Positions 2,655 through 14,266 of a stretch of 55,161 nt of DNA are shown one piece after another. The position numbers and the translations under genes were made by a program. The notes below the pieces were generated by a model, which saw only the letters and a program-made list of their open reading frames with translations, was not told where the DNA came from and ran no database searches. Position 1 is the stretch's first letter; every line of letters starts with the position of its first letter. Location of the stretch: NCBI GenBank assembly GCA_022750435.1, contig JAKIVS010000001.1, forward strand, positions 166,542 to 221,702. The letters are read 5' to 3'. The DNA comes from Thermoplasmata archaeon. GTDB taxonomy: Archaea; Thermoplasmatota; Thermoplasmata; Lutacidiplasmatales; UBA184.

Positions 2655-2744
2655 TCGAAGAAACCCATCCCGACGATGGGCTTTACACCTTTCGTGCGAC
2701 GGGGCTCGGCGAGAACCACGTCGCTCGTCCGGACTCGAGTCAGG

Positions 2745-2756
2745 TACCCGCGGGTA
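2745..2756. promoter_or_regulatory. Palindromic operator candidate, site 1 (TACCCGCGGGTA)
   Basis: A perfect 12-bp palindrome with core ACCCGCGGGT (2746-2755). It sits about 10 bp upstream of the TATA box of the winged-helix gene at 2795 and between two divergent genes. The same core recurs at 5343-5352 and 14245-14254, both also intergenic. A site just upstream of a regulator's own promoter suggests autoregulation; that link is inference. Confidence 0.5.
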
Positions 2757-2764
2757 ACCGACGC

Positions 2765-2770
2765 TCTATA
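2765..2770 (+). promoter_or_regulatory. TATA box of the winged-helix gene
   Basis: TCTATA, centred 27 nt upstream of the ATG at 2795. At this archaeal spacing transcription would begin at or next to the start codon, so the mRNA is probably leaderless. This supports the choice of 2795 over upstream in-frame starts. Confidence 0.6.
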
Positions 2771-2794
2771 CCACCCTCCGCGCATCTCGACGCG

Positions 2795-3394
2795 ATGAGC
2801 GAATGGGCGGACCGGGCCGAGGAGGCGCCGCTCGACGACCGGGTGGTCGAGTTCCTCCAGGACCGGCCGGGCCGGGTCGCCTTCAACGGCCTCCGCCGCG
2901 CCCTCGATGCCCATCCCGAGTCGCTGGTTCGATCGCTCCGGCGTCTCGAGCGGCACGGCGTTGTGTTGCACGGGTCGGACGGTTACGGCCTCGTCGACCG
3001 TCCCGCCGTAGAACGACCGTCCGCCCCGGCGAGGAGCCGCCCGTTCGCCGAGGTCACGCTCGCGCCGGGGGTTTCCCAGACCGAGCTGTTCGGTCGCCTG
3101 GCCGGTCGGTGGTTCGGGCCGCTTCGCTGGATCGGGCTCTACGAGCCGTCCGATGGCCCTTGGCTCGTTTGGTCGGTCGAGGGGAGCCGGGCCCAGGTGC
3201 GACTCGGAATTCGGCGCGGGCGCCTGACGGTCGTGCTCGACCGGCCGGACTCCACGGTTCCGGACGGGAAGGCGGACGATGCCGCCCGCCGGCTCCTCGG
3301 CCACGCCATCGACGCGCTCGAGCCGACGGCGGGCGAGTCGTCGGAGACCCTGACCATCTCCGCGCACCCGTCGTCGCTCTCCTACGCCAGCTGA
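2795..3394 (+). CDS. Winged-helix DNA-binding protein, probable transcription regulator
   Basis: 199 aa. Residues about 13-70 form a likely winged helix-turn-helix: helices DDRVVEFLQDRPG, AFNGLRRALDAH and PESLVRSLRRLERHG, followed by a wing strand GVVLHGSDGYGLVDR, the layout of MarR/ArsR-like and archaeal HTH proteins. The remaining 130 aa are a mixed alpha/beta domain (WFGPLRWIGLYEPSDGPWLVW, then QVRLGIRRGRLTVVL) that I do not recognise; it could sense a ligand or dimerise. No membrane segment. The start at 2795 is supported by the TATA box at 2765; an in-frame start at 2624 is not. The palindrome at 2745-2756 lies directly upstream, and the same core occurs near osmC, so local autoregulation and control of osmC are plausible but untested. 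Confidence 0.72.
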   Translation: MSEWADRAEEAPLDDRVVEFLQDRPGRVAFNGLRRALDAHPESLVRSLRRLERHGVVLHGSDGYGLVDRPAVERPSAPARSRPFAEVTLAPGVSQTELFGRLAGRWFGPLRWIGLYEPSDGPWLVWSVEGSRAQVRLGIRRGRLTVVLDRPDSTVPDGKADDAARRLLGHAIDALEPTAGESSETLTISAHPSSLSYAS

Positions 3395-3498
3395 ACGTCC
3401 CCTCCGTCGGCCGGAGTGTGACTGGACCTCGGGTTTTCCGCTCAATATCCCCCCCCGCGCGGTAGGGGAATCGGCCGAACCCGGCCAAGGAACCAACC

Positions 3499-3747
3499 AT
3501 GACGCACTTTGAGGGAAGCGACGAGGGACCGAGCTACGGACCGTGGGTGTGGAGCGCGTACAAGGCGTACAACGAGCTCCTCCGCGAGAAGATCAAGAAG
3601 CGATTCGAGGCGAAGGAAGGACCCTGGATGGACCAGCTCGCCGAGCTGCTCGTCCAGCTCGTGGACGCTCGCTGGGAAGGCGGCCGGCAGGGCGACAAGA
3701 CCGAGTCGGAGATCCGGGCGAAGCTCGACCAGCTGCTCGCGCAGTAG
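3499..3747 (+). CDS. Small hypothetical protein (82 aa)
   Basis: A short, strongly charged, mostly helical protein. It opens with an acidic, Gly/Ser stretch and a Tyr/Trp-rich patch (YGPWVWSAYKAYNELL), then Lys/Glu helices and a final amphipathic helix ESEIRAKLDQLLAQ. There is no Cys, signal peptide or membrane segment, so it is probably cytosolic. The codon use matches the neighbours and the ATG at 3499 is the natural start. An AATATC element at 3444-3449 lies about 53 nt upstream, giving a predicted leader of about 25 nt. The htrA-like gene follows 110 nt downstream on the same strand, possibly from its own promoter. I do not recognise the family. Confidence 0.6.
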   Translation: MTHFEGSDEGPSYGPWVWSAYKAYNELLREKIKKRFEAKEGPWMDQLAELLVQLVDARWEGGRQGDKTESEIRAKLDQLLAQ

Positions 3748-3824
3748 GTCCATGGCGCCCACGATGCCCAGCTCCCCGGGTCCGTCGCCGCGACCGACCC
3801 CGAACCCGGGGGTACCTTTTCCAT

Positions 3825-3846
3825 GGCCCGGCCCGTAGGCCGGGCC
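3825..3846 (+). promoter_or_regulatory. Perfect 8-bp-arm hairpin before the htrA-like gene
   Basis: GGCCCGGC (3825-3832) and GCCGGGCC (3839-3846) are exact inverted repeats around a 6-nt loop. The element ends 11 nt before the GTG start at 3858, downstream of a weak T-rich promoter-like stretch (3812-3820). It could be an mRNA hairpin limiting translation, an operator, or the end of the upstream transcript. Confidence 0.4.
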
Positions 3847-3857
3847 CCCTAGGACCC

Positions 3858-4820
3858 GTGGCGCTCGCAGCCCAGCAGGAGGAGCTCGTCGCGGCCGTCG
3901 CGACGCTCACGCCGAGCGTGGTCCGGGTCGTTCGGGTCACCGAACGGCGCCGCCACCGGAGGGCCGGGGAAGAGACCGCCGCCGGCAGCGGATTCGTCGT
4001 CGACGACCGCGGCCACGTCGTCACCAACTACCACGTCGTCCGGGAATCCGGGACGATCCAGGTGACGTTCGCCGACGGCGCGTCGGTCTCGGGAGAGCTC
4101 GTCGGCGCCGACCCGCTCACCGACCTCGCTCTCCTCCGCGTGGTCCGCAAGGGACCGCCGGCGGTGACGTGGGCCGACTCCGACCGGTTGCGGGCGGGGC
4201 AGTTCGCGATCGCCGTCGGGAACTCCCTCGGACTTCCGGGCTCACCGACCGTGTCGCTCGGCGTCGTCAGCGCCGTCGGACGCCCGCTCCCGTGGGCGTC
4301 GCACGTCCTGGAGGGGCTGGTCCAGACCGACGCCGCCATCAATCCCGGGAACAGCGGCGGTCCCCTCGCGGACCTTTCCGGGAAGGTGATCGGCGTCAAC
4401 ACCGCCATCGTTCCATACGCGCAGGGGGTAGGGTTCGCCGTCCCCTCGAACACGACCCGGTGGGTGTTGGACGCGCTCCTCGAGCACGGCCGCGTGGTGC
4501 GCCCGTGGCTGGGGATCCAGGCCGTCACGAGACTCGACGGCGACGGGACGTTCGCGAAGCCCGCCGGCGTGTACGTGGTCGAAGTGGTGCCGAACGGACC
4601 GGCCGGTCAGGCCGGGGTCCGCGAGGGGGACGTCCTGACCCGGATCGGGCCGCACCCGATCGCCACGCTCCACGACTTGCTGGTCGCCCTCAGCCGGGTC
4701 CCCATCGGCGGCGTCGTCGATGTCGTCAGTCGACGCGCCGGAGCGGAAGTACGGACGGTCGTCCGGGTCGCGGAAGGGCCACGTCCCGTCGAGGCGACGT
4801 CGCACGTCGCCGGCGAGTAA
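3858..4820 (+). CDS. HtrA/DegP-like trypsin-fold serine protease with one PDZ domain
   Basis: 320 aa from GTG 3858. The protease domain contains the full catalytic triad: His59 in TNYHVV, Asp89 in LTDLALL, and Ser166 in NPGNSGGPL, the diagnostic HtrA motif. Residues about 225-310 form a single PDZ domain (RPWLGIQAV, then VVPNGPAGQAGVREGDVLTRIG). Such proteases degrade or refold damaged proteins, and the PDZ domain recognises exposed C-termini. The usual bacterial signal peptide or membrane anchor is absent: the N-terminus ALAAQQEELVAAVATL is a soluble helix, so the enzyme is predicted to be cytoplasmic unless a start was missed. GTG 3858 is chosen because the upstream in-frame sequence is an Arg/Pro-rich shadow. 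It converges with osmC, 39 nt away, so quality control and oxidative stress genes sit together. Confidence 0.88.
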   Translation: MALAAQQEELVAAVATLTPSVVRVVRVTERRRHRRAGEETAAGSGFVVDDRGHVVTNYHVVRESGTIQVTFADGASVSGELVGADPLTDLALLRVVRKGPPAVTWADSDRLRAGQFAIAVGNSLGLPGSPTVSLGVVSAVGRPLPWASHVLEGLVQTDAAINPGNSGGPLADLSGKVIGVNTAIVPYAQGVGFAVPSNTTRWVLDALLEHGRVVRPWLGIQAVTRLDGDGTFAKPAGVYVVEVVPNGPAGQAGVREGDVLTRIGPHPIATLHDLLVALSRVPIGGVVDVVSRRAGAEVRTVVRVAEGPRPVEATSHVAGE

Positions 4821-4859
4821 CGGTCCGGACCCTTCGGCCCGAGCGCTCGTCCGGCCGCC

Positions 4860-5297
4860 CTAATCGAGCGTCGCGACGACCGAGATGACGACGTTCCCGT
4901 GGAGAGCCCCCGAGATCGGGCAGCCGGTCCCGGCCGCCGCCGCGGCCGCCGCGAATTTCTCCTGCGTCAGACCCGGCACCTTGCCGTGGACGACGAGCTC
5001 GCTCGTGGTGACCTTCCAGGCATCGCCGACCTTGTCGAACGTGACGGTCGCCTTGACGTCCAGTCGCTCGGGGGGTGTCCCGCCCCGGCCCAGTCCGGCG
5101 GCGAGGGCCATCGAGAAGCACGCTGCGTGCGCGGCCGCGAGGAGTTCTTCCGGGCTCGTCTTGCCGCCGGACGCCTCCGTCCGGGCGGCCCAGCTCACCG
5201 CGGTTTCGGGGAGCCCGCCGCTGAGGCCCTTGACCCGGCCGCTGCCCTTCGCGAGGTCGTGCTCCCAGACCGCTTCGGCGGTACGCTTGGCTGCCAT
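4860..5297 (-). CDS. osmC: OsmC-family peroxiredoxin
   Basis: 145 aa, the normal family size. OsmC/Ohr proteins reduce organic hydroperoxides through two conserved cysteines in a homodimer. Both are present: Cys60 in AHAACFSMAL and Cys126 in GTGCPISGAL, with SPEELLAAAHAACFS matching the OsmC signature. The sequence fits the OsmC subgroup rather than Ohr. No signal peptide, so cytosolic. The ATG at 5297 is preferred to an in-frame start at 5402 because a TATA-like GTTATCT (5320-5326, minus strand) is centred 26 nt upstream, giving a leaderless mRNA. It is divergent from the gene at 5393, and the shared 95-bp region holds the palindrome ACCCGCGGGT at 5343-5352. Confidence 0.9.
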   Translation of the reverse strand: MAAKRTAEAVWEHDLAKGSGRVKGLSGGLPETAVSWAARTEASGGKTSPEELLAAAHAACFSMALAAGLGRGGTPPERLDVKATVTFDKVGDAWKVTTSELVVHGKVPGLTQEKFAAAAAAAGTGCPISGALHGNVVISVVATLD

Positions 5298-5342
5298 CGG
5301 GGCGGCGAGGCCGTCCGAGAGATAACGTCCCCCGGCGGTCCC

Positions 5343-5352
5343 ACCCGCGGGT
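5343..5352. promoter_or_regulatory. Palindromic operator candidate, site 2 (ACCCGCGGGT)
   Basis: An exact second copy of the 10-bp core found at 2746. It lies between the divergent osmC and 5393 genes. Its centre is about 45 nt upstream of the 5393 start and 50 nt upstream of the osmC start, close to the 45-nt spacing seen at the winged-helix gene. Confidence 0.5.
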
Positions 5353-5392
5353 CCAGCCCGAGGGGTTTTCTGCCCGCGCGCGCTGATTACCA

Positions 5393-5818
5393 ATGGACCC
5401 ACCGATGGCGATCGAGATCTCCGAGCTCCCGCGCTACCTTGTCCTCGAACCGGGCGGCGGCATCCGCCTCGACATGCGCCTCGAGGCGACCGCGTGCGAG
5501 TTCGACTTTGCCCTCGAGAGTCCCCGCCCCGGTCGCAGCTTCATCGTGATGATCGGCCACCGCTCCGGCTCGATCGTCCAGCGGGTCCGCCTCGCCGGCA
5601 AGGCGAAGATCCTCTTCGACCCCGAAGGTCCGGGCGAGTACACCCTGGTGCTCACGAATCCGATGGCGGACCCGGCCGTCGTCCGCTTGAAGGCGACCGC
5701 GGTCTCCGGTCCGGAACCTCCGCACGTAACTCGACGCAAGCCTACGGCTGGCGTCACCTCCCGCCGACGCAAGCCCACCGCGCCGCGGGCGGCGCGGGGT
5801 TCGTCGAGGTCTAAATAG
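5393..5818 (+). CDS. Small protein with predicted beta-sandwich domain and basic tail
   Basis: 141 aa. The first 100 residues alternate like a beta sandwich: YLVLEPGGGIRLDMRLEA, FDFALESPRPGRSFIVMIGH, SIVQRVRLAGKAKILFDPEG and GEYTLVLTNPMADPAVVRLKA. The GEYTLVLTN run, strand-turn and Asn, is reminiscent of GOLD/emp24-like sandwiches, but that is only a resemblance. The last 35 residues are almost pure Arg/Lys/Pro/Ser/Thr (HVTRRKPTAGVTSRRRKP), suggesting binding to nucleic acid or acidic lipid. No Cys pairs, signal peptide or membrane segment. ATG 5393 is used; a second in-frame ATG (5405) is also possible. The stop codon overlaps the TATA box of the next gene. Function unknown. Confidence 0.65.
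   Translation: MDPPMAIEISELPRYLVLEPGGGIRLDMRLEATACEFDFALESPRPGRSFIVMIGHRSGSIVQRVRLAGKAKILFDPEGPGEYTLVLTNPMADPAVVRLKATAVSGPEPPHVTRRKPTAGVTSRRRKPTAPRAARGSSRSK
5811..5818 (+). promoter_or_regulatory. TATA box of the tryptophanase gene, overlapping the upstream stop codon
   Basis: CTAAATAG, centred about 24 nt before GTG 5838 (27 before the adjacent TTG 5841). It contains the TAG stop of the preceding gene, so the two genes are abutted but the second has its own promoter and a leaderless start. Confidence 0.55.
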
Positions 5819-5837
5819 GCGCGCCCCGGTCGCCGGG

Positions 5838-7223
5838 GTGTTGGCGTCCGCTCCGAGAGAACCTCGGCCGCCCGTCGAGCCCTACAAGGTCAAGGTCGTC
5901 GAGCGGATCCGCCTTCCCAGTCGGGAGGAGCGGGAAGCCGCGCTGAGAACGGCCGGCTACAATCTGTTCCAGATCCGGTCCGACGACGTCTACATCGACC
6001 TGCTCACCGACTCGGGCACATCGGCGATGAGCGACCGCCAGTGGGCGGGGATGATGGTTGGCGACGAGTCGTACGCCGGCAGCCGCAATTTCGCTCACTT
6101 CGAGGCGACCGTCCAGGAACTGACCGGGTTCCCGTTCGTCATCCCGGCCCACCAGGGCCGGGCCGCCGAGAACCTACTGTTCTCGTTGATGGGCCGACCG
6201 GGGACGGTCATCCCCAACAACATGCACTTCGACACCACCCGGGCCCACGTCGAACGGAACGGCTCGAAAGCGGTCAACCTGGCGATCCCGGAGGCGTACG
6301 ACCTCGCGAGCCCGCACCCGTTCAAGGGGAACGTCGACGTGCCGAAGCTCGAGGACCTCCTCCGCGCGGGGCCGTCGAAGGTCCCCCTCGTGATGGTCAC
6401 GCTCACGAACAACACGGGGGGCGGTCAACCGGTCTCCGTGGCCAACCTCACGGCCGTACGGGACGCCTGCCGGGCGGCGGGAGTCCCGCTCTACCTCGAC
6501 ATGTGCCGGTGGGCGGAGAACTCGTTCTTCGTCCGGGAGCGCGAGGGAGGGATGTCCGGCCGCACGATCCCGGAGATCGGCCGTCTCTGCTTCGACCTCG
6601 CCGACGGGGCGACCATGAGTGCGAAGAAGGACGGCCTCGTCAACATCGGGGGCTTCGTGGCCACGCGCGACGCCGCCCTGGCGGCCCGCCTCAAGGAGCA
6701 GTTGATCGTCTTCGAGGGATTCCCCACGTACGGCGGCCTCGCCCGCCGGGACCTGGAAGCCGCCTCGATCGGGATGCGCGAGGCGTGCGACCTCGACTAC
6801 CTCGCGCACCGGATCGGGCAGGTCCGATACCTCGCCTCTCTGCTCGATGAGGCGGTGATTCCGTACGTTCGACCCCCGGGGGGGCATGGGATCTACCTCG
6901 ACGTTCGTCGGTTCCTCCCGGACCTCCCGAGCGCCGATTTCCCGGGACAGTCGCTGGTCATCGAACTGTACCGGGAGGGCGCCGTCCGGACGGTCGAGGT
7001 CGGGGCCGTGATGTTCGGTGACGGGGCGCCGGGCGACCCCGCCCCGCTGGAATTGGTGCGTCTGGCGATCCCGCGGCGGGTCTACACCTCCGCCCACCTC
7101 GCATACGTGGCCGAGGTGGTCCGGCGAGTCTGGGACCGCCGGGCAACGATCCGGGGCGTCCGGATGGTCGAGGCCCCCGAGCGACTCCGCCATTTCACCG
7201 CGAAGTTCCAACCGAACGGGTGA
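5838..7223 (+). CDS. tnaA: Tryptophanase (L-tryptophan indole-lyase), PLP-dependent
   Basis: 461 aa, the normal size for the beta-eliminating lyase family (tryptophanase and tyrosine phenol-lyase). Tryptophanase splits L-tryptophan into indole, pyruvate and ammonia. Family motifs are intact: IDLLTDSGT, the THQGR-like AHQGRAAENL, GGQPVS, and the PLP lysine Lys264 in MSAKKDGLVNIGG. The choice between the two activities rests on three positions. Asp132 in FDTT (tyrosine phenol-lyase has Thr), Val388 in TVEVG (phenol-lyase has the substrate Arg in MERG) and His452 in LRHFTAK (phenol-lyase has Phe) all follow the tryptophanase pattern. No signal peptide. It is probably monocistronic from the TATA box at 5811. 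The family is mainly bacterial, so transfer is possible; base composition is not visibly different from the neighbours. Confidence 0.88.
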   Translation: MLASAPREPRPPVEPYKVKVVERIRLPSREEREAALRTAGYNLFQIRSDDVYIDLLTDSGTSAMSDRQWAGMMVGDESYAGSRNFAHFEATVQELTGFPFVIPAHQGRAAENLLFSLMGRPGTVIPNNMHFDTTRAHVERNGSKAVNLAIPEAYDLASPHPFKGNVDVPKLEDLLRAGPSKVPLVMVTLTNNTGGGQPVSVANLTAVRDACRAAGVPLYLDMCRWAENSFFVREREGGMSGRTIPEIGRLCFDLADGATMSAKKDGLVNIGGFVATRDAALAARLKEQLIVFEGFPTYGGLARRDLEAASIGMREACDLDYLAHRIGQVRYLASLLDEAVIPYVRPPGGHGIYLDVRRFLPDLPSADFPGQSLVIELYREGAVRTVEVGAVMFGDGAPGDPAPLELVRLAIPRRVYTSAHLAYVAEVVRRVWDRRATIRGVRMVEAPERLRHFTAKFQPNG

Positions 7224-7296
7224 CCCCGGCGCCCGCACCCGCGGCGTCCGGCCCCCCGCGTCGCAATCGGTCCCGCCGAACCGAGCGGAGAGAATT

Positions 7297-7350
7297 GTTT
7301 ATCAACCCCCCTTGGGTGGGCCGAGCGCCGAGGAGCCTCTCTCAGGAGGC
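7297..7350 (+). promoter_or_regulatory. TATA box and Shine-Dalgarno hairpin of the gene at 7361
   Basis: GTTTATCA (7297-7304) is a good TATA box, placing the transcript start near 7327 and leaving a leader of about 34 nt. The leader contains AGGAGG (7344-7349), 11 nt before the ATG. GCCTC (7335-7339) can pair with GAGGC (7346-7350), which includes most of that ribosome site, so the hairpin could mask it. This is one of the few genes here with a clear Shine-Dalgarno leader. Confidence 0.5.
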
Positions 7351-7360
7351 GTGCGGACAG

Positions 7361-8656
7361 ATGCAGACGGATACGTGCAACCAACCGGGCGACGGGGCCC
7401 TACCCTCCAACCGACCGGCCGGCACTTCGCTGCCTCCGACGAACCCTTCCTCGATCCTGGCGCGACCGCGCCGGACCACCCTCCTCGCCCTCGGAGCGGT
7501 GTTCGTTCTCGCGATCCTCGCCTCCTCCGCCACGCCCCTCCCGTCCGCGTCGACCTCGAACGGAGCGTTCGGTCCGTCCTCTCCCATTCAGAGCTCCGCG
7601 TACGGCAACTGCAACCCCGTCGGAACCCAGACCCCCTCCGCCATCCTGCAAGGGATCCCGGTCCCGTCGACGAACGTGACCCCCGGCGGGAACCTGTCGG
7701 CCGTCATGCAGGTCGAGGCCCAGAACTGGGTCGCCGCCGACTCGAACATCTCGGTGCATTTCCCGAGCATCTTCTTCGACTTCCCGCGCGCTTCCGGGGG
7801 GAACCAGCAATTGTTCTTCACGAACCGTTCGATTCTGATGAATTTCTCCGGATGGTCCACGCCGTCGTTCGGGTCGACCAAGAATTACACGTTCCCGAGC
7901 GGGCTGCAGTTCGAGGCGGGAGCGAAGGCGCGGATCGACTCGATGAAACTCGCGGTCACCGCCACGGTGGACTACGGCGGGATCACGATTGAGATCCGGT
8001 GGCACTGGACGTACACGTCGGCGCCGGGCGTTTCCATCACCTCTCCTTGGTCGGTGCCGACCACGAAGACGAACTGGCCCAAGGCCGTGCCGTCCATCTT
8101 CTGGCCGGCGCCCTATACCACCTACCTGAACAGCACCGGGATTTCGGCCGTGATCGGAACAAACTGGTCCGCCACCCTCGGCGGCGACGTGGGCGGTCGG
8201 ACGTTCTTCCTGGAGATGGAGTACCCGTCGGGAAGCGTCGTGCAGGACCTCCAGCAGACGGCGCCCGCGAACGCCACCACATTCCTGGTGCAAATCCCGA
8301 TGGTCAACTACGACCACTACCTCGACCCGGGCGCTTTCCTGATCCATATCCACGACGCGTGTGGGGCGATGCTCTACAGCAAGACGGTGAACGCGGTGTT
8401 CCCGCCCTCGGCGACCGTTGGGTTCTTCCTAACCCCGTCGGCCTGCGCGACCCACTTCATCACGTTCAACGGGACCAAGTACGGCAACGGGACCACCGGA
8501 GTCTTCCTGCCCTCCGCGACGGGGTACTCGATGTCGATCCCCGCCTGCACGGGACATCCGTTCTCGGGCTGGTCGACGACCGGGGCCATGCACATCGAGA
8601 ACGGTCATACGATGATCGTGAGCAATAGCGGTACGTTCACCGTCAACTACAGCTGA
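7361..8656 (+). CDS. Exported surface protein with C-terminal InlB-like repeat
   Basis: 431 aa. A cytoplasmic Pro/Ser-rich N-terminus is followed by a hydrophobic segment (RTTLLALGAVFVLAILAS, about residues 38-56) that serves as signal or anchor. The exported part is beta-rich, with many N-glycosylation sequons (for example NVT, NLS, NIS, NRS, NFS). The last 65 residues, ending HPFSGWSTTGAMHIENGH and FTVNYS, resemble the divergent InlB B-repeat (Flg_new_2-like) module. There is no C-terminal anchor, so it is either N-anchored or released. ATG 7361 is chosen for its AGGAGG site; an in-frame GTG at 7316 is an alternative. The next gene begins 20 nt after the stop, so the two probably form an operon. 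Function unknown. Confidence 0.75.
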   Translation: MQTDTCNQPGDGALPSNRPAGTSLPPTNPSSILARPRRTTLLALGAVFVLAILASSATPLPSASTSNGAFGPSSPIQSSAYGNCNPVGTQTPSAILQGIPVPSTNVTPGGNLSAVMQVEAQNWVAADSNISVHFPSIFFDFPRASGGNQQLFFTNRSILMNFSGWSTPSFGSTKNYTFPSGLQFEAGAKARIDSMKLAVTATVDYGGITIEIRWHWTYTSAPGVSITSPWSVPTTKTNWPKAVPSIFWPAPYTTYLNSTGISAVIGTNWSATLGGDVGGRTFFLEMEYPSGSVVQDLQQTAPANATTFLVQIPMVNYDHYLDPGAFLIHIHDACGAMLYSKTVNAVFPPSATVGFFLTPSACATHFITFNGTKYGNGTTGVFLPSATGYSMSIPACTGHPFSGWSTTGAMHIENGHTMIVSNSGTFTVNYS

Positions 8657-8676
8657 GCCAGGGACGGTGGGAAGCC

Positions 8677-11073
8677 GTGCGCGCGCGTCGCCCTCTCGGG
8701 CTCATTCGCGCCGCGCTCGTCATCACTCTGCTGCTCCTCGTCACGGGGACCGGTCCGGCTGCGGCCGCGCCCCTATCCTCCGCACGGGCGTCGTCGGCCC
8801 CGGCGGTCGTCCCCGCGGCCGCGACCCCGTACATCCAGCACGTGGTCGTGGTCGTCCTCGAGAACGAAGTGCTCTCCAACGTCTGGGGGCACGGGCCGTA
8901 CGAACGGTACCTCGCCGCCCAGTACGGCAACGCGACCCAATACTACGCGGCCTGCCACCCGTCGGCGCCGAACTACCTGGTCATGTTCGCCGCCGTGGTC
9001 AACCAGTGCGGATCGGATAGCTGGAACAATTACACGAACACCTCGATCAACGAGGAACTCGACGCGGCGGGCCTCAGCTGGGGGGCCTATGCGGAGAGCT
9101 TACCGTCGGGGGCGTGCGCCGACCCGGGCTCGGCTACCGCGGGGCTGTTCGCGACCCGGCACGTGCCGGCGCTCTGGTTCGCCAACGTCCTCCAGAACCA
9201 GACCTACTGCGGGGACCACGTGCTCCCCTCGGACTCGTTCAATCAGAGCCTGGCGAACGGGACCCTGCCGAACTACTCGTACTACACCCCGAACCTCTGC
9301 GACGACGGGCACAACGGGTGCGGCGGCAACACGACCGGGGCACAGATGACCGCGCAAGCGGATGCCTGGCTCGACGGGTGGCTGAGCCCGATCCTGAACC
9401 ACACGGGCACGTACGCCGGCGCGGCGGAACAGGCCCTGGTCAATCACACGGCGTTCTTCATCACGTGGGACGAGGGAACCGGTAGCAACAGCGGCTTCGC
9501 GGTGCCGGGCCTTACGGGTGGGGACAATTACAAGTGGTGCGGGCAGAACGGCGCGTCGGGCGACGCCGTCTGCGGCGGCCAGATCTACACCTCCGTGGTC
9601 AGCCCCTATTCCCGGCACACGACATTCACCGCCAACGACTCCCCGTATGGGCTGCTGCGGACCGTCGAGTGGCTGTTCGACCTGCCGCCTCTCGCGAACC
9701 CGGGCGGATTCGACAACACGAGCGGCTTTCCGGCGATGACCACCCTGTTTCGGTTCCCAGCGACGTTCAACGTCACCGCCCAGGAGTCCCAGCTTCCACC
9801 GAACGGCACGTGGTGGTTCAATGTCACCGGCGGTCCTACGACGTGGACGAACGGCACTTCCCTCACGGTTCCTCTGCCGAACGGCTCGTACGCCTTCACC
9901 GCCTCCACCCCCCTCCCCGGCTGGAACTCGCCGAACGGGACGTTCTCGGTCAACGGCACGGCCGTGAATGTCTCGGTGGCGTTCTCCGCGGAGCAGTACC
10001 CGGTCACGTTCACGAAGGGCGGCCTTCCCCCCGGGACGTGGTGGCAGCTCACGGTCGACGGGGATCGGCAGCCGGGAACCAACCAGACCTCCGTGGTCGT
10101 GAACCTCTCCGAAGGGTTCCAATTCTGGGTCGCCACCACCAACGACTCCACCTGGAACTCACCCAACGGGACCTTCCCGCTCTTCGGCGGCCCGTGGAGC
10201 GTGAACGTCACGTTCTCGCGCGTCACCTACCTCGCCACCGTCACGCAAACCAGCCTCCCTGCGACGACGAGCTGGTGGCTGAACGTGACCAACGAGACGG
10301 ATGTCGTCGGGATGGGGAGCCGACTTTCGGTGTACCTACCGAACGGGTCGTACCCGTTCACCGCCCAAGCGGACGGGAACTCGTGGAGCCGTGGGGCCGG
10401 GACGCTCGACGTTGCGGGAGGAGCCGCTTTCGCGTCGGTGAACTTCACCCTCGAAGTCTTCCCCGTCATCTTCTCCGCCTCGGGCCTCACAGTCGGCGCC
10501 ACGTGGAACCTGACGCTTGAGGGAGCCGTTCGGAACCTCTCGTACGATGGATCGACGTCGTTCTCCGAGCCGAACGGGACCTATTCGTATCGCGTCCTGG
10601 CGCCGTCGAACGCCCCACCGCTCCGACCGAACGGGACGTTCTTGGTCGCGGGTGGGCCGGTGAACGTCACCGTCGGGTTTGACCCGGCGCTGTCGGTTGG
10701 CGGACTCCCCGCCACGCCGACGGTCGTCGAACTCGGCGGGCCGGTGTCGATTGCCGGGACCATCCAGGGGGGGACTCCTCCGTTCCAAGTCCGATTCAGC
10801 GGCCTGCCGCCGGGGTGCAACAATTCGACCCCCCCGACCCTTCGGTGCATCCCGTCGACTGCCGGACATTTTACGGTGGTCCTCTCGGTGACGGACTCGG
10901 TCGGAGCCATCGCCTCCGCCACGACGACCGTGGTGGTCGTGGTGACCTCCGGCCCCGGTCCGAACGCGATCCCGGGGGCGCCGTCCTGGTCGCTCGACGT
11001 GGGCCTGGTGGCCGTGGCCGCGATCGCCGTCGGAGCCGGATTCGTCGTGGCTCGCCGTTTCCGGCGTCGGTGA
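8677..11073 (+). CDS. Secreted PF04185-type phosphoesterase fused to surface repeats, membrane anchored
   Basis: 798 aa from GTG 8677. After a signal peptide (about 1-32), residues about 50-360 form a phosphoesterase/acid phosphatase domain of the AlkP-like fold: HVVVVVLENEV (metal Glu/Asn region), HPSAPNYLVM (the HPSxPNY signature), FFITWDEGTG (metal Asp/Glu) and YTSVVSPYSRH. The paralogue at 11235 has His in GGHIY where this protein has Gln in GGQIY, so one predicted metal or active-site contact may differ. About four or five thermopsin-like repeats follow (LPPGTWWQLTVDG, PNGSYAFTA), then one Ig/PKD-like domain (LPPGCNNSTPPTLRCIPSTAG) and a C-terminal membrane helix with RRFRRR. It likely cleaves phosphate esters outside the cell while tethered to the membrane. 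It probably shares a transcript with the gene at 7361. Confidence 0.82.
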   Translation: MRARRPLGLIRAALVITLLLLVTGTGPAAAAPLSSARASSAPAVVPAAATPYIQHVVVVVLENEVLSNVWGHGPYERYLAAQYGNATQYYAACHPSAPNYLVMFAAVVNQCGSDSWNNYTNTSINEELDAAGLSWGAYAESLPSGACADPGSATAGLFATRHVPALWFANVLQNQTYCGDHVLPSDSFNQSLANGTLPNYSYYTPNLCDDGHNGCGGNTTGAQMTAQADAWLDGWLSPILNHTGTYAGAAEQALVNHTAFFITWDEGTGSNSGFAVPGLTGGDNYKWCGQNGASGDAVCGGQIYTSVVSPYSRHTTFTANDSPYGLLRTVEWLFDLPPLANPGGFDNTSGFPAMTTLFRFPATFNVTAQESQLPPNGTWWFNVTGGPTTWTNGTSLTVPLPNGSYAFTASTPLPGWNSPNGTFSVNGTAVNVSVAFSAEQYPVTFTKGGLPPGTWWQLTVDGDRQPGTNQTSVVVNLSEGFQFWVATTNDSTWNSPNGTFPLFGGPWSVNVTFSRVTYLATVTQTSLPATTSWWLNVTNETDVVGMGSRLSVYLPNGSYPFTAQADGNSWSRGAGTLDVAGGAAFASVNFTLEVFPVIFSASGLTVGATWNLTLEGAVRNLSYDGSTSFSEPNGTYSYRVLAPSNAPPLRPNGTFLVAGGPVNVTVGFDPALSVGGLPATPTVVELGGPVSIAGTIQGGTPPFQVRFSGLPPGCNNSTPPTLRCIPSTAGHFTVVLSVTDSVGAIASATTTVVVVVTSGPGPNAIPGAPSWSLDVGLVAVAAIAVGAGFVVARRFRRR

Positions 11074-11234
11074 GCCGGCGGTTCGCCGAAAGTCTTGCGC
11101 GCGCCGGATCCGTCCCGTCGAATTCGGGTCGCTAGGTTCCGCTACGGCTCCGTCGCACCTCTCGGACCGGAGTTCTCGCCAAGGGCGTACCGGTCCCGGC
11201 AGGGACGGCGCCCGTCCGGGAACGGGTGCCCGAC

Positions 11235-12266
11235 TCAACCGACTCGGCGTTGGGGGGCGGCGACGGGGGACATCAACGCCAGGTCCGCGGCGTTGCGGGG
11301 GGCGTGGCCGGACGGCTTCTTCGCGGGGAAGGAGAAGAGGTCCTCCATCGGCGGGTGGGTCGTCCAGTTGTCGTTGTGCCCCGTGTGCCCGAGGCCCAGC
11401 AGCCACTCGGTGGTCGTCAACAGGTCGTAGTCGTCGTACTGGGTCGTGGAGTTGTAGCCGCCGACGGTGTACGGCGAGACCGCGGCCATGTAGATGTGAC
11501 CCCCGCCGGAGCCGCCGTTGATCCCGAGGTTGGAGGTCCCCTCGTCGAAGGTGAGGAAGAACACCGTGTTCGAGAACAGCGACCCGTTGACGAGCGGCGG
11601 TAGCCACGTCTGGAGCCACGCGTTCGCGACGCTCACATTCGTGTCGTGTCCGTCGTCCGTGTTGTTCGGAACGACGAAGGAGTAGTTCGGGAGCTTGCTG
11701 GCCGCCACGTCGGCGTTCCAGGCGGTGAAGTTCACGACGTGCGAATCGCACTTCGCCGTGTTCGACACCACGTCGTAGTACATCATGAACGGATTGTGAT
11801 TGATGTCGTAGGTCCCGGAGCTGTTCGGGTCGCACGGGTAGGGCATCCCCTCCAAGAACGCCCCCCAGGTCCGGCCCGTGTTGCCGACGAGGTCCCCGAT
11901 CTGCTTCGTCTTTGTCACCTTGAATTGGTTCGTGGTGATCCCGGACGTCGCGGCGAGATAGTTCGGCAGCGAGTAGTGCTCCACGGAGTAGTACTGGCTC
12001 GCGAAGGCGTAGTGGTCGGCGAGGTACGCGAAGTAGCTTCCGTTCGCCAGCACCGAGCCGACCTCGGCGTTCTCGAAGTACAGGATCACGACATGGCGGA
12101 TTGGACTCGGATACACGGGGGTGGAGTCGGCATGGAGCGGCGCCACCGCCGTGGATCCGCTCGGTACGGCGCCCAGTAGCGCCGCCCCGACCAGGACGAT
12201 CGCGACTCCGACCGCCGCGAGGGCCGTTCGGAGAATGTGCGCGTGGGACCACGTAGGGACACGCAT
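11235..12266 (-). CDS. Secreted PF04185-type phosphoesterase (acid phosphatase/phospholipase C family)
   Basis: 343 aa. An N-terminal hydrophobic segment (about 10-33) exports the protein; no C-terminal anchor. Family motifs: RHVVILYFENAEVGS, the HYSLPNYLAATSG signature, NYSFVVPNNTDDGHD, FFLTFDEGTS and GGGHIYMAAVSPY, which together match PF04185 phosphoesterases of the AlkP-like superfamily. It hydrolyses phosphomonoesters or phosphodiesters; the substrate is not readable from sequence. It is a shorter relative of the catalytic domain at 8677 and lies tail to tail with it, 161 nt apart. The TATA box (12290-12297, minus strand) is centred 27 nt before the ATG, so the mRNA should be leaderless. 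Confidence 0.82.
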   Translation of the reverse strand: MRVPTWSHAHILRTALAAVGVAIVLVGAALLGAVPSGSTAVAPLHADSTPVYPSPIRHVVILYFENAEVGSVLANGSYFAYLADHYAFASQYYSVEHYSLPNYLAATSGITTNQFKVTKTKQIGDLVGNTGRTWGAFLEGMPYPCDPNSSGTYDINHNPFMMYYDVVSNTAKCDSHVVNFTAWNADVAASKLPNYSFVVPNNTDDGHDTNVSVANAWLQTWLPPLVNGSLFSNTVFFLTFDEGTSNLGINGGSGGGHIYMAAVSPYTVGGYNSTTQYDDYDLLTTTEWLLGLGHTGHNDNWTTHPPMEDLFSFPAKKPSGHAPRNAADLALMSPVAAPQRRVG

Positions 12267-12289
12267 CGATCCCTCGGAGCGCTCGTCGG

Positions 12290-12297
12290 ATAAAAAG
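12290..12297 (-). promoter_or_regulatory. TATA box of the secreted phosphoesterase at 11235-12266
   Basis: CTTTTTAT on the minus strand, one of the strongest TATA elements in the window, centred about 27 nt before the ATG at 12266 and so predicting a leaderless transcript. Confidence 0.65.
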
Positions 12298-12390
12298 GCT
12301 CGTCCCGGGATGTGGGTCCCATCGAAGAAGTTCGTCCCGAACGCCGACGGAGGAGCGGACGGAGACGCACCTCCCCGGCGGGCCTGGTCG

Positions 12391-13911
12391 CTAGATGTAT
12401 CCCCAGGAGCGAAGCCGCTCTTCGACGTCGCTCGATACGGCCACCGACGAGGACTCGGCCATGCGGCCCGCCACCCCGCGGACTTCGCCGGCCAGGCCCG
12501 CGAGCTCCGGCCCCCGGATGGGCCACAAGTCGGTCCGCTCGTCCGGGTCCCGCCGCACGTCGTAGGCGCAGATCCGGTCGTCCGTCGCGTCGTACACGAC
12601 CTTCAGGTCCCCTTCCCAGCCGGCCACGAGGATCCGGTCGAACTCGTGCTTCCGCTTCTCCGACAGACGGCCGCGCTCGTGCTCCGGGATGATCGTCTTC
12701 CACACGAGACCGTCGGCGGCGGCCAGGACGGGGCCGGGGCGGGGCCGGTCGCGGAGCTGACCGAGGGGGACTCCGGAAGAGACGAGCGGGTAGGGGAGCT
12801 CTGCGTCCTCGGCCAACGTCGGTGCGACGTCCACGAGGCTCGCCCATCCCGTCGCCTCCCCGGCCGGCGACCGCTGGCGGGCACGCCGGATCCAGAGCGG
12901 GATGCGGACGAGCGGTTCTTCGAGGCGGAGCATGTGGAACAGGACGTCGTGCTCGCCGAACGCCTGGCCGTGGTCGCTGGTGACGACCACGGTCGTGTCG
13001 TCCCATCGCCCGTGTCGTTGGAACACCTCCGCGATCCCCGCAAGCCGACGATCGGCGTCGCGAAGGTTTTCTCGGAACAGCTCGTGGAGCTGCCGGTACT
13101 CGTCCGCTGTGGGCGTCCAGGAGCCCGCCAACCAGCCGACATGGTCCTGGCGCGCCCGGCCCCGCTTCAACCATCCGAGGACGTCCGAGCGCCACTCGGA
13201 CATCGGGTAGTACGGCTCGTGCGTCTCCAGGAGATTCACGAACGTGAACACCGGCTTTTCGGCGGGGGTCTCCGACAGCCAGCGGTCGAGGGTCGGCTCG
13301 ATCCATGGCGAGACGCCGGGGAGCTCGCGCGCGTCGGGGTGGCGGAGTCGCTGGGAGAACCGTCCGGCGGAGTCCGTGACGAAGGGGAACCGGTACACGA
13401 CTCGACTGCTGAGCTTGAGCGCCTGCCAGGCCGGCCCGTGCTGAAGGCGGCTCAGGCTGGACGATGCCGGCCCTACCCCGTCGTCGAGCGTATGCGGCGG
13501 GTGACCGCTCCCCGAGACCCGAAGGTACGGTTCCCACCAGCCCGCCCAGGCGGCACGGTCGAATCCCTCGGTGAAACCGAGGTCGGGAGAAATCAGGTGG
13601 TTGGCGGAGAGGGACATCGTCCGGTACCCCCGCTCGCGCAGGAGGCTCGGGAGCCGTGGGATCCCGCCGACGAGCTTCAGGGCGGACTTGGCGTGCGCTC
13701 CGTGCTCCCAGGGGTAGAGGCCCGTGAACAGGCTGGCGTGGGACGGGACCGTCCACGGCGCGGGGCTCACGGCGTTGGGGAACCACATCCCTTCGCGGCG
13801 GAGCCGGTCGGCGAACGGCATGTTGGTGACGGCGCGCGGACCCCCCGGCAGGTCGTCAGCGCGGCCGCAGTCGAAGACGATGACGAGGACGTTCGGCGGA
13901 GGTCGGCCCAT
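12391..13911 (-). CDS. Cytoplasmic AlkP-superfamily (sulfatase-like) hydrolase, Thr nucleophile
   Basis: 506 aa, no signal peptide. The AlkP fold is clear: metal Asp14 in LVIVFDCGRAD, the nucleophile motif APWTVPSHASLFTGLYP with Thr54, NLLETHEPY, and metal-binding VVTSDHGQAFGEH. Classical sulfatases need C/S-x-P-x-R for formylglycine; here the positions read T-V-P-S-H, so a formylglycine sulfatase is unlikely and a Thr-nucleophile phosphodiesterase or transferase is more probable. It ends DVEERLRSWGYI, nearly identical to the end of the paralogue at 32935. It may act on a phosphorylated glycan or lipid-linked intermediate, given two GT-C genes 1.4 kb away; this is inference. I see no TATA box at leaderless spacing, but a short upstream ORF ends on its start codon. 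Confidence 0.82.
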   Translation of the reverse strand: MGRPPPNVLVIVFDCGRADDLPGGPRAVTNMPFADRLRREGMWFPNAVSPAPWTVPSHASLFTGLYPWEHGAHAKSALKLVGGIPRLPSLLRERGYRTMSLSANHLISPDLGFTEGFDRAAWAGWWEPYLRVSGSGHPPHTLDDGVGPASSSLSRLQHGPAWQALKLSSRVVYRFPFVTDSAGRFSQRLRHPDARELPGVSPWIEPTLDRWLSETPAEKPVFTFVNLLETHEPYYPMSEWRSDVLGWLKRGRARQDHVGWLAGSWTPTADEYRQLHELFRENLRDADRRLAGIAEVFQRHGRWDDTTVVVTSDHGQAFGEHDVLFHMLRLEEPLVRIPLWIRRARQRSPAGEATGWASLVDVAPTLAEDAELPYPLVSSGVPLGQLRDRPRPGPVLAAADGLVWKTIIPEHERGRLSEKRKHEFDRILVAGWEGDLKVVYDATDDRICAYDVRRDPDERTDLWPIRGPELAGLAGEVRGVAGRMAESSSVAVSSDVEERLRSWGYI

Positions 13912-14012
13912 CAGGAGGCCACCATCGCGGGGGACCCCCGCGCGGTCGCCCGACTCTCGCGTCCGACGCCCGAGGGAGGGTCAGAATGTCCGGCGCGGAG
14001 AGGAACCGTCAT
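13911..14012 (-). CDS. Possible upstream ORF (33 codons) ending on the AlkP start codon
   Basis: The minus-strand ATG at 14012 opens 33 codons (starting MTVPLRAGHS) whose TGA shares one base with the ATG of the next gene (TGATG). A weak TATA (CATAAG) lies about 36 nt before it. In GC-rich DNA open frames are common, so this may be chance; it is listed because similar arrangements occur upstream of sat and two other genes. Confidence 0.2.
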   Translation of the reverse strand: MTVPLRAGHSDPPSGVGRESRATARGSPAMVAS

Positions 14013-14266
14013 GCGAACCCCGTGGTCCCGCGCGTGAACTCCGACGCTTATGACCGTGGCGAGTCGGTCTGTCGCTCCGGTTCGCGACGGTCGAGACTCC
14101 GGGGACGGAGGCCCCGGGAGGCCGGGGCGGGGGCCCTCCTCCGTACGGGAAACCGCGGAGGGTGGCGTCGTTCGGGCCGAGAACGAATTCGTCCCGGCAG
14201 CCCCGGCGTGTTTCCGAATGCCTTGTTTCGGTCGTCCTAATGTGACCCGCGGGTCATGATGAAAGC
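13912..14266. other. 355-bp intergenic region with candidate regulatory signals
   Basis: This lies between the divergent genes at 13911 and 14267. It contains a possible minus-strand TATA (CATAAG, 14046-14051), a possible upstream ORF (13911-14012), GC-rich inverted repeats around 14098-14165, and the 14-bp palindrome at 14243-14256. Small ORFs here (for example 13986-14240) have Arg/Gly-rich composition typical of shadows. I find no tRNA, SRP or RNase P signature, though a structured RNA cannot be excluded. Confidence 0.4.
14243..14256. promoter_or_regulatory. Palindromic operator candidate, site 3 (TGACCCGCGGGTCA)
   Basis: A perfect 14-bp palindrome that includes the core ACCCGCGGGT. It begins right after a weak TATA-like CCTAATG (14236-14242) and ends 11 nt before GTG 14267, so a bound protein would cover the transcription start of the surface-protein gene. 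Confidence 0.5.

Follow-up and report, generated by a model that had tools for sequence, protein, structure and literature searches.

Does a palindrome that recurs within a short stretch of an archaeal genome mark the operator of a small regulon? The stretch analysed here, referred to as the window, comprises 55,161 nucleotides (nt) of contig JAKIVS010000001.1 (positions 166,542 to 221,702; assembly GCA_022750435.1) and belongs to the uncultured Thermoplasmata archaea (Lutacidiplasma group). It contains the 10-mer ACCCGCGGGT in exactly three copies, at 2746 (site 1), 5343 (site 2) and 14245 (site 3). In a preliminary description these copies were taken for the operator of a regulon in which a winged-helix-turn-helix (wHTH) protein, encoded from position 2795, controls its own gene, osmC and the gene of a surface protein. 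Our comparison with related genomes points to a different answer: site 1 probably belongs to an operator by which the wHTH protein controls its own gene, and this gene lies in a module with genes for a conserved 82-amino acid (aa) protein and an HtrA-type protease, while sites 2 and 3 are probably coincidental and osmC and the surface-protein gene would not be targets. A plausible regulon prediction is thereby corrected and replaced by a testable one, with a precise candidate operator, a likely regulator and likely partner genes.

Homologues of the wHTH protein were found in 45 of 61 genomes of the genus. Their upstream regions were compared in 44 loci (without the fragment L111), 43 of which have at least 110 nt upstream of the start. 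A right arm GT[AGT]A[CG][CT] (consensus GTWACC) is present in 36 of these 43 promoters, 6 base pairs (bp) ahead of the TATA box; it lies between -40 and -43 in 32 promoters and between -50 and -56 in four. The alignment anchored on this arm revealed, at 6 bp to either side, a left arm of approximately GGTDRC (upstream) and a TATA box YTAAAT (downstream), with [CT]T[AT][AT]A at the TATA position in 28 of the 36. Together they form a degenerate dyad, approximately GGTNRC-N6-GTWACC, whose left-arm core and right arm (TDRC-N6-GTNASY) occur jointly in 26 of 43 wHTH promoters and in 34 if the left arm may lack one base. An unanchored search for GTWASC or its complement between -60 and -30 detected it in 34/43 wHTH promoters, 1/40 promoters of the 82-aa gene and 0/33 osmC promoters.

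The same distribution was obtained with a matrix of the element. In a leave-one-out evaluation 37 of 43 wHTH promoters exceeded the 99% level of shuffled sequences (7.7 bits), the window's own promoter reaching 15.9 bits; this level was passed by none of 33 osmC promoters and by two of 40 promoters of the 82-aa gene. Across the window, site 1 was the top match at 17.1 bits, whereas sites 2 and 3 scored -8.3 and 2.3 bits. A stringent pattern of element plus TATA box gave 16 matches, one each in 16 of 78 genomes of the genus, and a wHTH gene lies just downstream of all 16. In the searches made, the conserved element appears to be limited to the wHTH promoter.

These results uphold one part of the earlier proposal and not the other. 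There is a probable operator at site 1, and the wHTH protein would be its likeliest ligand because the element is conserved upstream of the homologues and the combination with the TATA box was found only before wHTH genes. The 10-mer itself is unlikely to be the operator, since its CCGCGG core, common to all three copies, corresponds to the unconserved spacer of the element (the spacer columns have low information, except for a preferred G at the first position). An element conserved at the region of the TFB recognition element (BRE) and TATA box of its own gene is as would be expected for an autoregulated archaeal winged-helix regulator. Binding by the wHTH protein, and autoregulation because the element was found only at the protein's own gene, are what we infer from this arrangement. 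At site 1 the protein would help or hinder the recruitment of TFB and TBP; as the BRE position follows immediately after the element, activation and repression are both possible. The TATA-like box lies about 26 nt before ATG 2795, which suggests a leaderless transcript.

The element might instead be a core-promoter element or the site of another factor; its place directly beside the BRE/TATA region, and the much better conservation of the right arm than of the left, would fit this. However, none of the osmC promoters and few promoters of the 82-aa gene contain the element, and matches to element plus TATA box lie only at wHTH genes, so that we consider this explanation unlikely. The coordinates of the features are given in Table 1.

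Table 1. Features of the wHTH-protease locus and further copies of the 10-mer (window coordinates)
Feature	Position	Strand	Details
Candidate operator of the wHTH gene	2743..2759	+	GGTAC-CCGCGG-GTAACC; contains 10-mer copy 1 (2746-2755)
Operator, left arm	2743-2747		Lacks one base of the consensus
Operator, spacer	2748-2753		
Operator, right arm	2754-2759		
TATA-like box	2766..2771	+	CTATAC; aligned columns +12..+17 from right arm
wHTH regulator	2795..3394	+	199 aa without cysteine; winged helix at the N-terminus, alpha/beta domain at the C-terminus
Promoter of the 82-aa gene	3417..3449	+	TGTGACTGG ... TCAATATC; consensus TGTGACCGG ... CCGSTCAATATCC
Leader hairpin	3473..3486	+	GGCCG/CGGCC; between promoter and ATG 3499, close to the ATG
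Conserved 82-aa protein	3499..3747	+	Product of a gene that accompanies the wHTH gene
HtrA/DegP-type trypsin-PDZ protease	3858..4820	+	Pfam Trypsin_2 (2e-35), PDZ
10-mer copy 2	5343..5352	.	Between osmC (4860-5297, -) and the 5393/5405 gene; probably a chance copy
10-mer copy 3	14245..14254	.	Before GTG 14267 of the surface-protein gene; probably a chance copy

The nearest relatives found were G049 and G090 (Thermoplasmata archaeon AcS5-58), whose wHTH proteins are 68-69% identical to that of the window. The counterparts of site 1 read CCTAACGCCGGGGTAACCGACGCTCTATA in G049 and CCTACCTCGGGGTAACCACCGCTCTATA in G090; the right half and the TATA box are kept and the 10-mer is lost. At site 2, ACCCGCGGGT is absent in both genomes, and at site 3 it was not found in the stretches examined in the promoters of their homologues, the starts of which are uncertain. 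The 10-mer is therefore conserved upstream of orthologues at none of the three places, an outcome that the preliminary description had named as one that would speak against it. Exact copies were present in 1/43 wHTH, 1/33 osmC and 0/40 82-aa-gene promoters, both matches being the source genome's own; one further osmC promoter (L071) has a copy with one mismatch.

The genes downstream of site 1 accompany the regulator in other genomes. Both domains of the protease score above their cut-offs (Trypsin_2 123 bits, PDZ_2 37.7 bits), which assigns it to the HtrA/DegP type. With matches counted at E<1e-20, the protease is found in 41 of the 45 genomes that have the wHTH gene and in one of the 16 that lack it (Fisher p=8e-10), and identical figures were obtained for the 82-aa gene (41/45 vs 1/16, p=8e-10). 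For osmC the numbers are 39/45 and 12/16 (p=0.43), and for the surface protein 9/45 and 1/16 (p=0.27). The p-values carry no correction for completeness, which ranges from 56 to 100%, and they overstate independence since the genomes are related to each other. The sole exception without the wHTH gene, G014, has both partner genes on one contig, the edge of which cuts the 82-aa gene. Gene order was surveyed in 49 loci from the 45 genomes, four of which contribute two loci each. Counted by genome, the wHTH and 82-aa genes diverge in 33; the 82-aa gene follows in tandem downstream in seven and was undetected in the fetched DNA in five; in G049 the tandem 82-aa gene lies 6.6 kb from the wHTH gene. 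A wider scan, in which 80 of 108 loci were kept, reached Bathyarchaeota, Thaumarchaeota and Nitrososphaera records and detected the protease in the fetched DNA of 60 of the 80 wHTH loci. The regulator would thus belong to a module with the 82-aa protein and the protease and may control these too, control of the protease being suggested by linkage and co-occurrence. Of the results obtained, the neighbourhood of site 1 is the more interesting one.

Several observations weigh against an autoregulatory operator in such a module. No right arm is recognisable in seven of the 43 wHTH promoters (L039, L099, L101, L106, L108, L109, L110). Anchoring on the right arm inflates the columns of the anchor; the left arm and the TATA box played no part in the selection. 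The left arm varies considerably, with GGTDRC-N6-GTWACC in only 6/43 and GTDRC-N6-GTWASC in 15/43 wHTH promoters, and that of the window itself (GGTAC) is one base short. The pattern of element plus TATA box matched only 16 of the 78 genomes, and the source genome is not among them. Three genomes that are 93-95% complete (G001, G017 and G037) have the wHTH gene and no counted protease. For the two stricter and two looser forms of the dyad, in that order, the promoters of the 82-aa gene gave 0, 0, 2 and 4 matches of 40, and those of osmC 0/33 throughout. These counts show a dyad that is laxer than its right arm by itself, for which reason our confidence was lowered by a small step; we still hold the autoregulatory operator to be probable.

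The description of the 10-mer copies themselves was accurate. The three copies are exact and intergenic, and the palindrome is longer at two of them (12 bp at site 1, 14 bp at site 3). A codon-usage gene caller, which classes 91% of the window as coding, places all of them outside genes, and dinucleotide shuffles contained 0.26 copies on average, none of 100 reaching three. Nevertheless, ACCCGCGGGT is one of eleven 10-bp palindromes with three or more occurrences in the window. Markov simulations of order 2, 3 and 5 yield 5.2, 7.1 and 5.8 such palindromes on average, so that the copy number of ACCCGCGGGT taken alone is unremarkable. The placing is mildly unusual: 18 of 120 palindromes in the window are intergenic, and ACCCGCGGGT is the only one of the 11 repeated palindromes to be wholly so, a pattern with a rough post-hoc probability of 0.15^3 x 11 = 0.04.

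In the source genome (1.92 Mb in 28 contigs, completeness 84%), ACCCGCGGGT has eight copies, with about nine expected from the scaled shuffle rate and six for the reversed pattern as control; as this is about the expected number, it was rejected as an enriched genomic motif. The five copies outside the window are all within reading frames, as GAC CCG CGG GTC for Asp-Pro-Arg-Val, and all five were called coding. Of 22 same-genus copies from other genomes, which are those examined out of a larger set, 21 were called coding by codon usage, a few calls near gene ends being soft. Another start follows about 60 nt after one of the copies called coding (L117), which overlaps the terminal part of a reading frame and could be promoter-proximal; the copy called intergenic (L128) has no start nearby. 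Since the caller was trained on the window and is unreliable for other genera, five copies from such genera (L009-L013; four called intergenic, L011 coding) were excluded from the counts; the frame at L012, called intergenic, resembles what we take to be an NAD kinase. Summed over 19 genomes of the genus, the source genome included, ACCCGCGGGT has 113 copies and the reversed control 64, an excess for which the coding use of Asp-Pro-Arg-Val is the sole explanation offered.

A regulon with ACCCGCGGGT as operator, comprising the wHTH gene, osmC (or the 5393 gene) and the surface-protein gene, would explain why each of the window copies lies between genes and ahead of a start, why three are found where 0.26 are expected, and why no other repeated palindrome is placed in this way; the 113 copies against 64 would fit it as well. 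It is nevertheless very unlikely, as 5/8 copies in the genome are in-frame coding and 21/22 of the same-genus copies examined were called coding, a second outcome that the preliminary description had named as speaking against it; the 10-mer is not kept in G049 and G090, the exact copies among the wHTH and osmC promoters are the source genome's own, and the 10-mer core is no part of the conserved element. osmC was dropped as a target with no element in its promoters and with the gene present in 12/16 genomes lacking the regulator, and the surface protein with the 2.3 bits of site 3 and homologues in 10 of 61 genomes.

The wHTH protein of the source genome alone might instead have shifted recently to ACCCGCGGGT, giving a species-specific regulon invisible in relatives. 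The atypical left arm of the window (GGTAC) and the GTGAC-N6-GTCA kept at site 3 are in line with this. We regard such a shift as very improbable, since the protein is identical to that of G049 over residues 26-57 and 68-69% identical to its nearest homologues overall, the sites of these homologues follow the element, and sites 2 and 3 score poorly by the matrix. Under the autoregulatory reading, what sites 2 and 3 have in common with site 1 would be mainly the spacer, by chance. The case would then show that three identical palindromes can have an unconserved spacer in common by coincidence, with only one of them in a real site.

A loose form of the dyad, GGTNAC-N5..7-GTNACC, has 12 sites in the source genome and two for a control. 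Eleven have a 7-base and one a 5-base spacer, none has the form of site 1, and no regulon was drawn from them. Among the 16 most distant wHTH loci (L228-L243), a comparable dyad, TGGTAG-N7-CTACCA, directly precedes TTTATAA in five, in line with the autoregulatory reading, and was not found in the other 11. The five loci (L234, L235, L236, L238 and L240), with perfect arms and a variable spacer, are Bathyarchaeota or Crenarchaeota records; being closely related to each other, they represent about one lineage.

The 82-aa gene has a promoter of its own. A TATA-like alignment anchor was found in 39 of 40 promoters, with GTGA in register in nearly all 39; the only one without an anchor (L028) has a misassigned start. 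The gene-specific pattern TGTGACCGG...TCAATATCC has a fixed geometry of 32 nt: its 42 matches, in 41 of 78 genomes, are all of this length despite the variation allowed. The window's own promoter contains one base that the search pattern excludes. In 29 of the 30 loci returned, the 82-aa gene starts 28-101 nt downstream of the pattern, and the remaining locus (L257) has the protease and osmC nearby. The pattern occurs in 31/45 genomes with the wHTH gene and in 0/16 without it, as expected if the 82-aa gene goes with the regulator. Its GTGACC resembles one arm of the dyad, and the wHTH protein might bind there too.

In 38 leaders of the 82-aa gene the hairpin shows compensatory changes, with 80.7% of cells paired. 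Its covariation score of 0.431 compares with 0.171 (standard deviation 0.023) in shuffled alignments and at most 0.165 in slid controls. Two of five hairpin measures do not exceed shuffles (113 and 92 of 500), and no more than four of the pairs were predicted by RNAalifold, at an energy (-1.55 kcal/mol) that is weak. A gene with a hairpin in its leader adjoins an apparently leaderless regulator gene.

The AlphaFold2 model of the wHTH protein has a mean predicted local distance difference test score (pLDDT) of 78. Residues 13-66 lie in blocks of pLDDT 81-94 and form a winged helix, and the region of helix 41-53 is near-invariant among homologues. Weak MarR_2 matches in all 16 members (best 3.9e-6) and weak HTH matches agree with this fold; membership of the MarR family is not supported for the window protein, which scores 14.8 bits against a curated cut-off of 27. 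TrmB (PF01978) matched one of 16 members at E 0.067, the window protein not being listed. Searches of the PDB identified no family by sequence (best E 0.11) and no fold at E<=0.001 (best 0.0028). The C-terminal alpha/beta domain of the model may sense a signal. None of the 16 aligned wHTH proteins has a cysteine, and a thiol-based peroxide sensor is therefore unlikely.

Regulators of the TrmB type are reported to act as activators from sites upstream of BRE/TATA and as repressors from downstream sites; in P. furiosus, TrmB exerts its repression from BRE/TATA itself (PMC4158304). Like the element found here, the TrmB/Tgr site (TGM, TATCAC-N5-GTGATA) is palindromic and adjoins BRE/TATA, and autoregulation has been proposed for Tgr (PMC4158304). 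The present dyad differs, and so does the protein, given the single PF01978 match among its homologues. With the MarR superfamily it shares the MarR_2 matches and the winged helix of the model; it differs by its score below cut-off, its C-terminal alpha/beta domain and the lack of a PDB fold match at E<=0.001. The archaeal heat-shock repressors Phr and HSR1 are tied to protein-quality-control genes. The likeness to these is by description only, a regulator tied to such genes, and the partner here is an HtrA-type protease.

Titles and the beginnings of abstracts, with few subscription papers covered, contained no description of this regulator-protease module, which is apparently new to the literature. 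The link to an HtrA-type protease, which recurs in other archaeal phyla, would open a way to archaeal protein-damage sensing. We put forward, as possible rather than probable, an archaeal switch of protein quality control in which a cysteine-free winged-helix sensor on a TATA-adjacent dyad would control its own gene and the protease across Thermoplasmatota, Bathyarchaeota and Thaumarchaeota; in the genus of the window it would also control a small helper protein, and a covarying hairpin near the start codon, in the mRNA leader of this protein, would add a second, translational layer.

Turning to the other genes of the window, the product of osmC has the OsmC domain of the OsmC peroxiredoxins (PF02566 62.7 bits; TIGR03562 152.7 bits, cut-off 85.8), and its promoters show little conservation besides the TATA box used as anchor. 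Together with the neighbouring gene listed from ATG 5393, osmC forms a divergent pair (4860-5818) that recurs in loci of the genus, homologues of the 5393 gene being present in 27 locus rows, duplicates included. This gene may start at ATG 5405. Of 25 homologue rows from other genomes, 12 had their start assigned to codon 5 (5405), in G049 a TAG stands where ATG 5393 would be, and the codon-usage caller prefers 5405 too. A distance of about 45 nt from palindrome centre to start, earlier noted for two genes, holds for the wHTH gene (44.5) and for ATG 5393 (45.5), but would be about 57 from 5405; at site 3 it is about 17 nt. Two proteins of the Phosphoesterase family (PF04185) are encoded a short distance apart on opposite strands, at 8677-11073 and 11235-12266.

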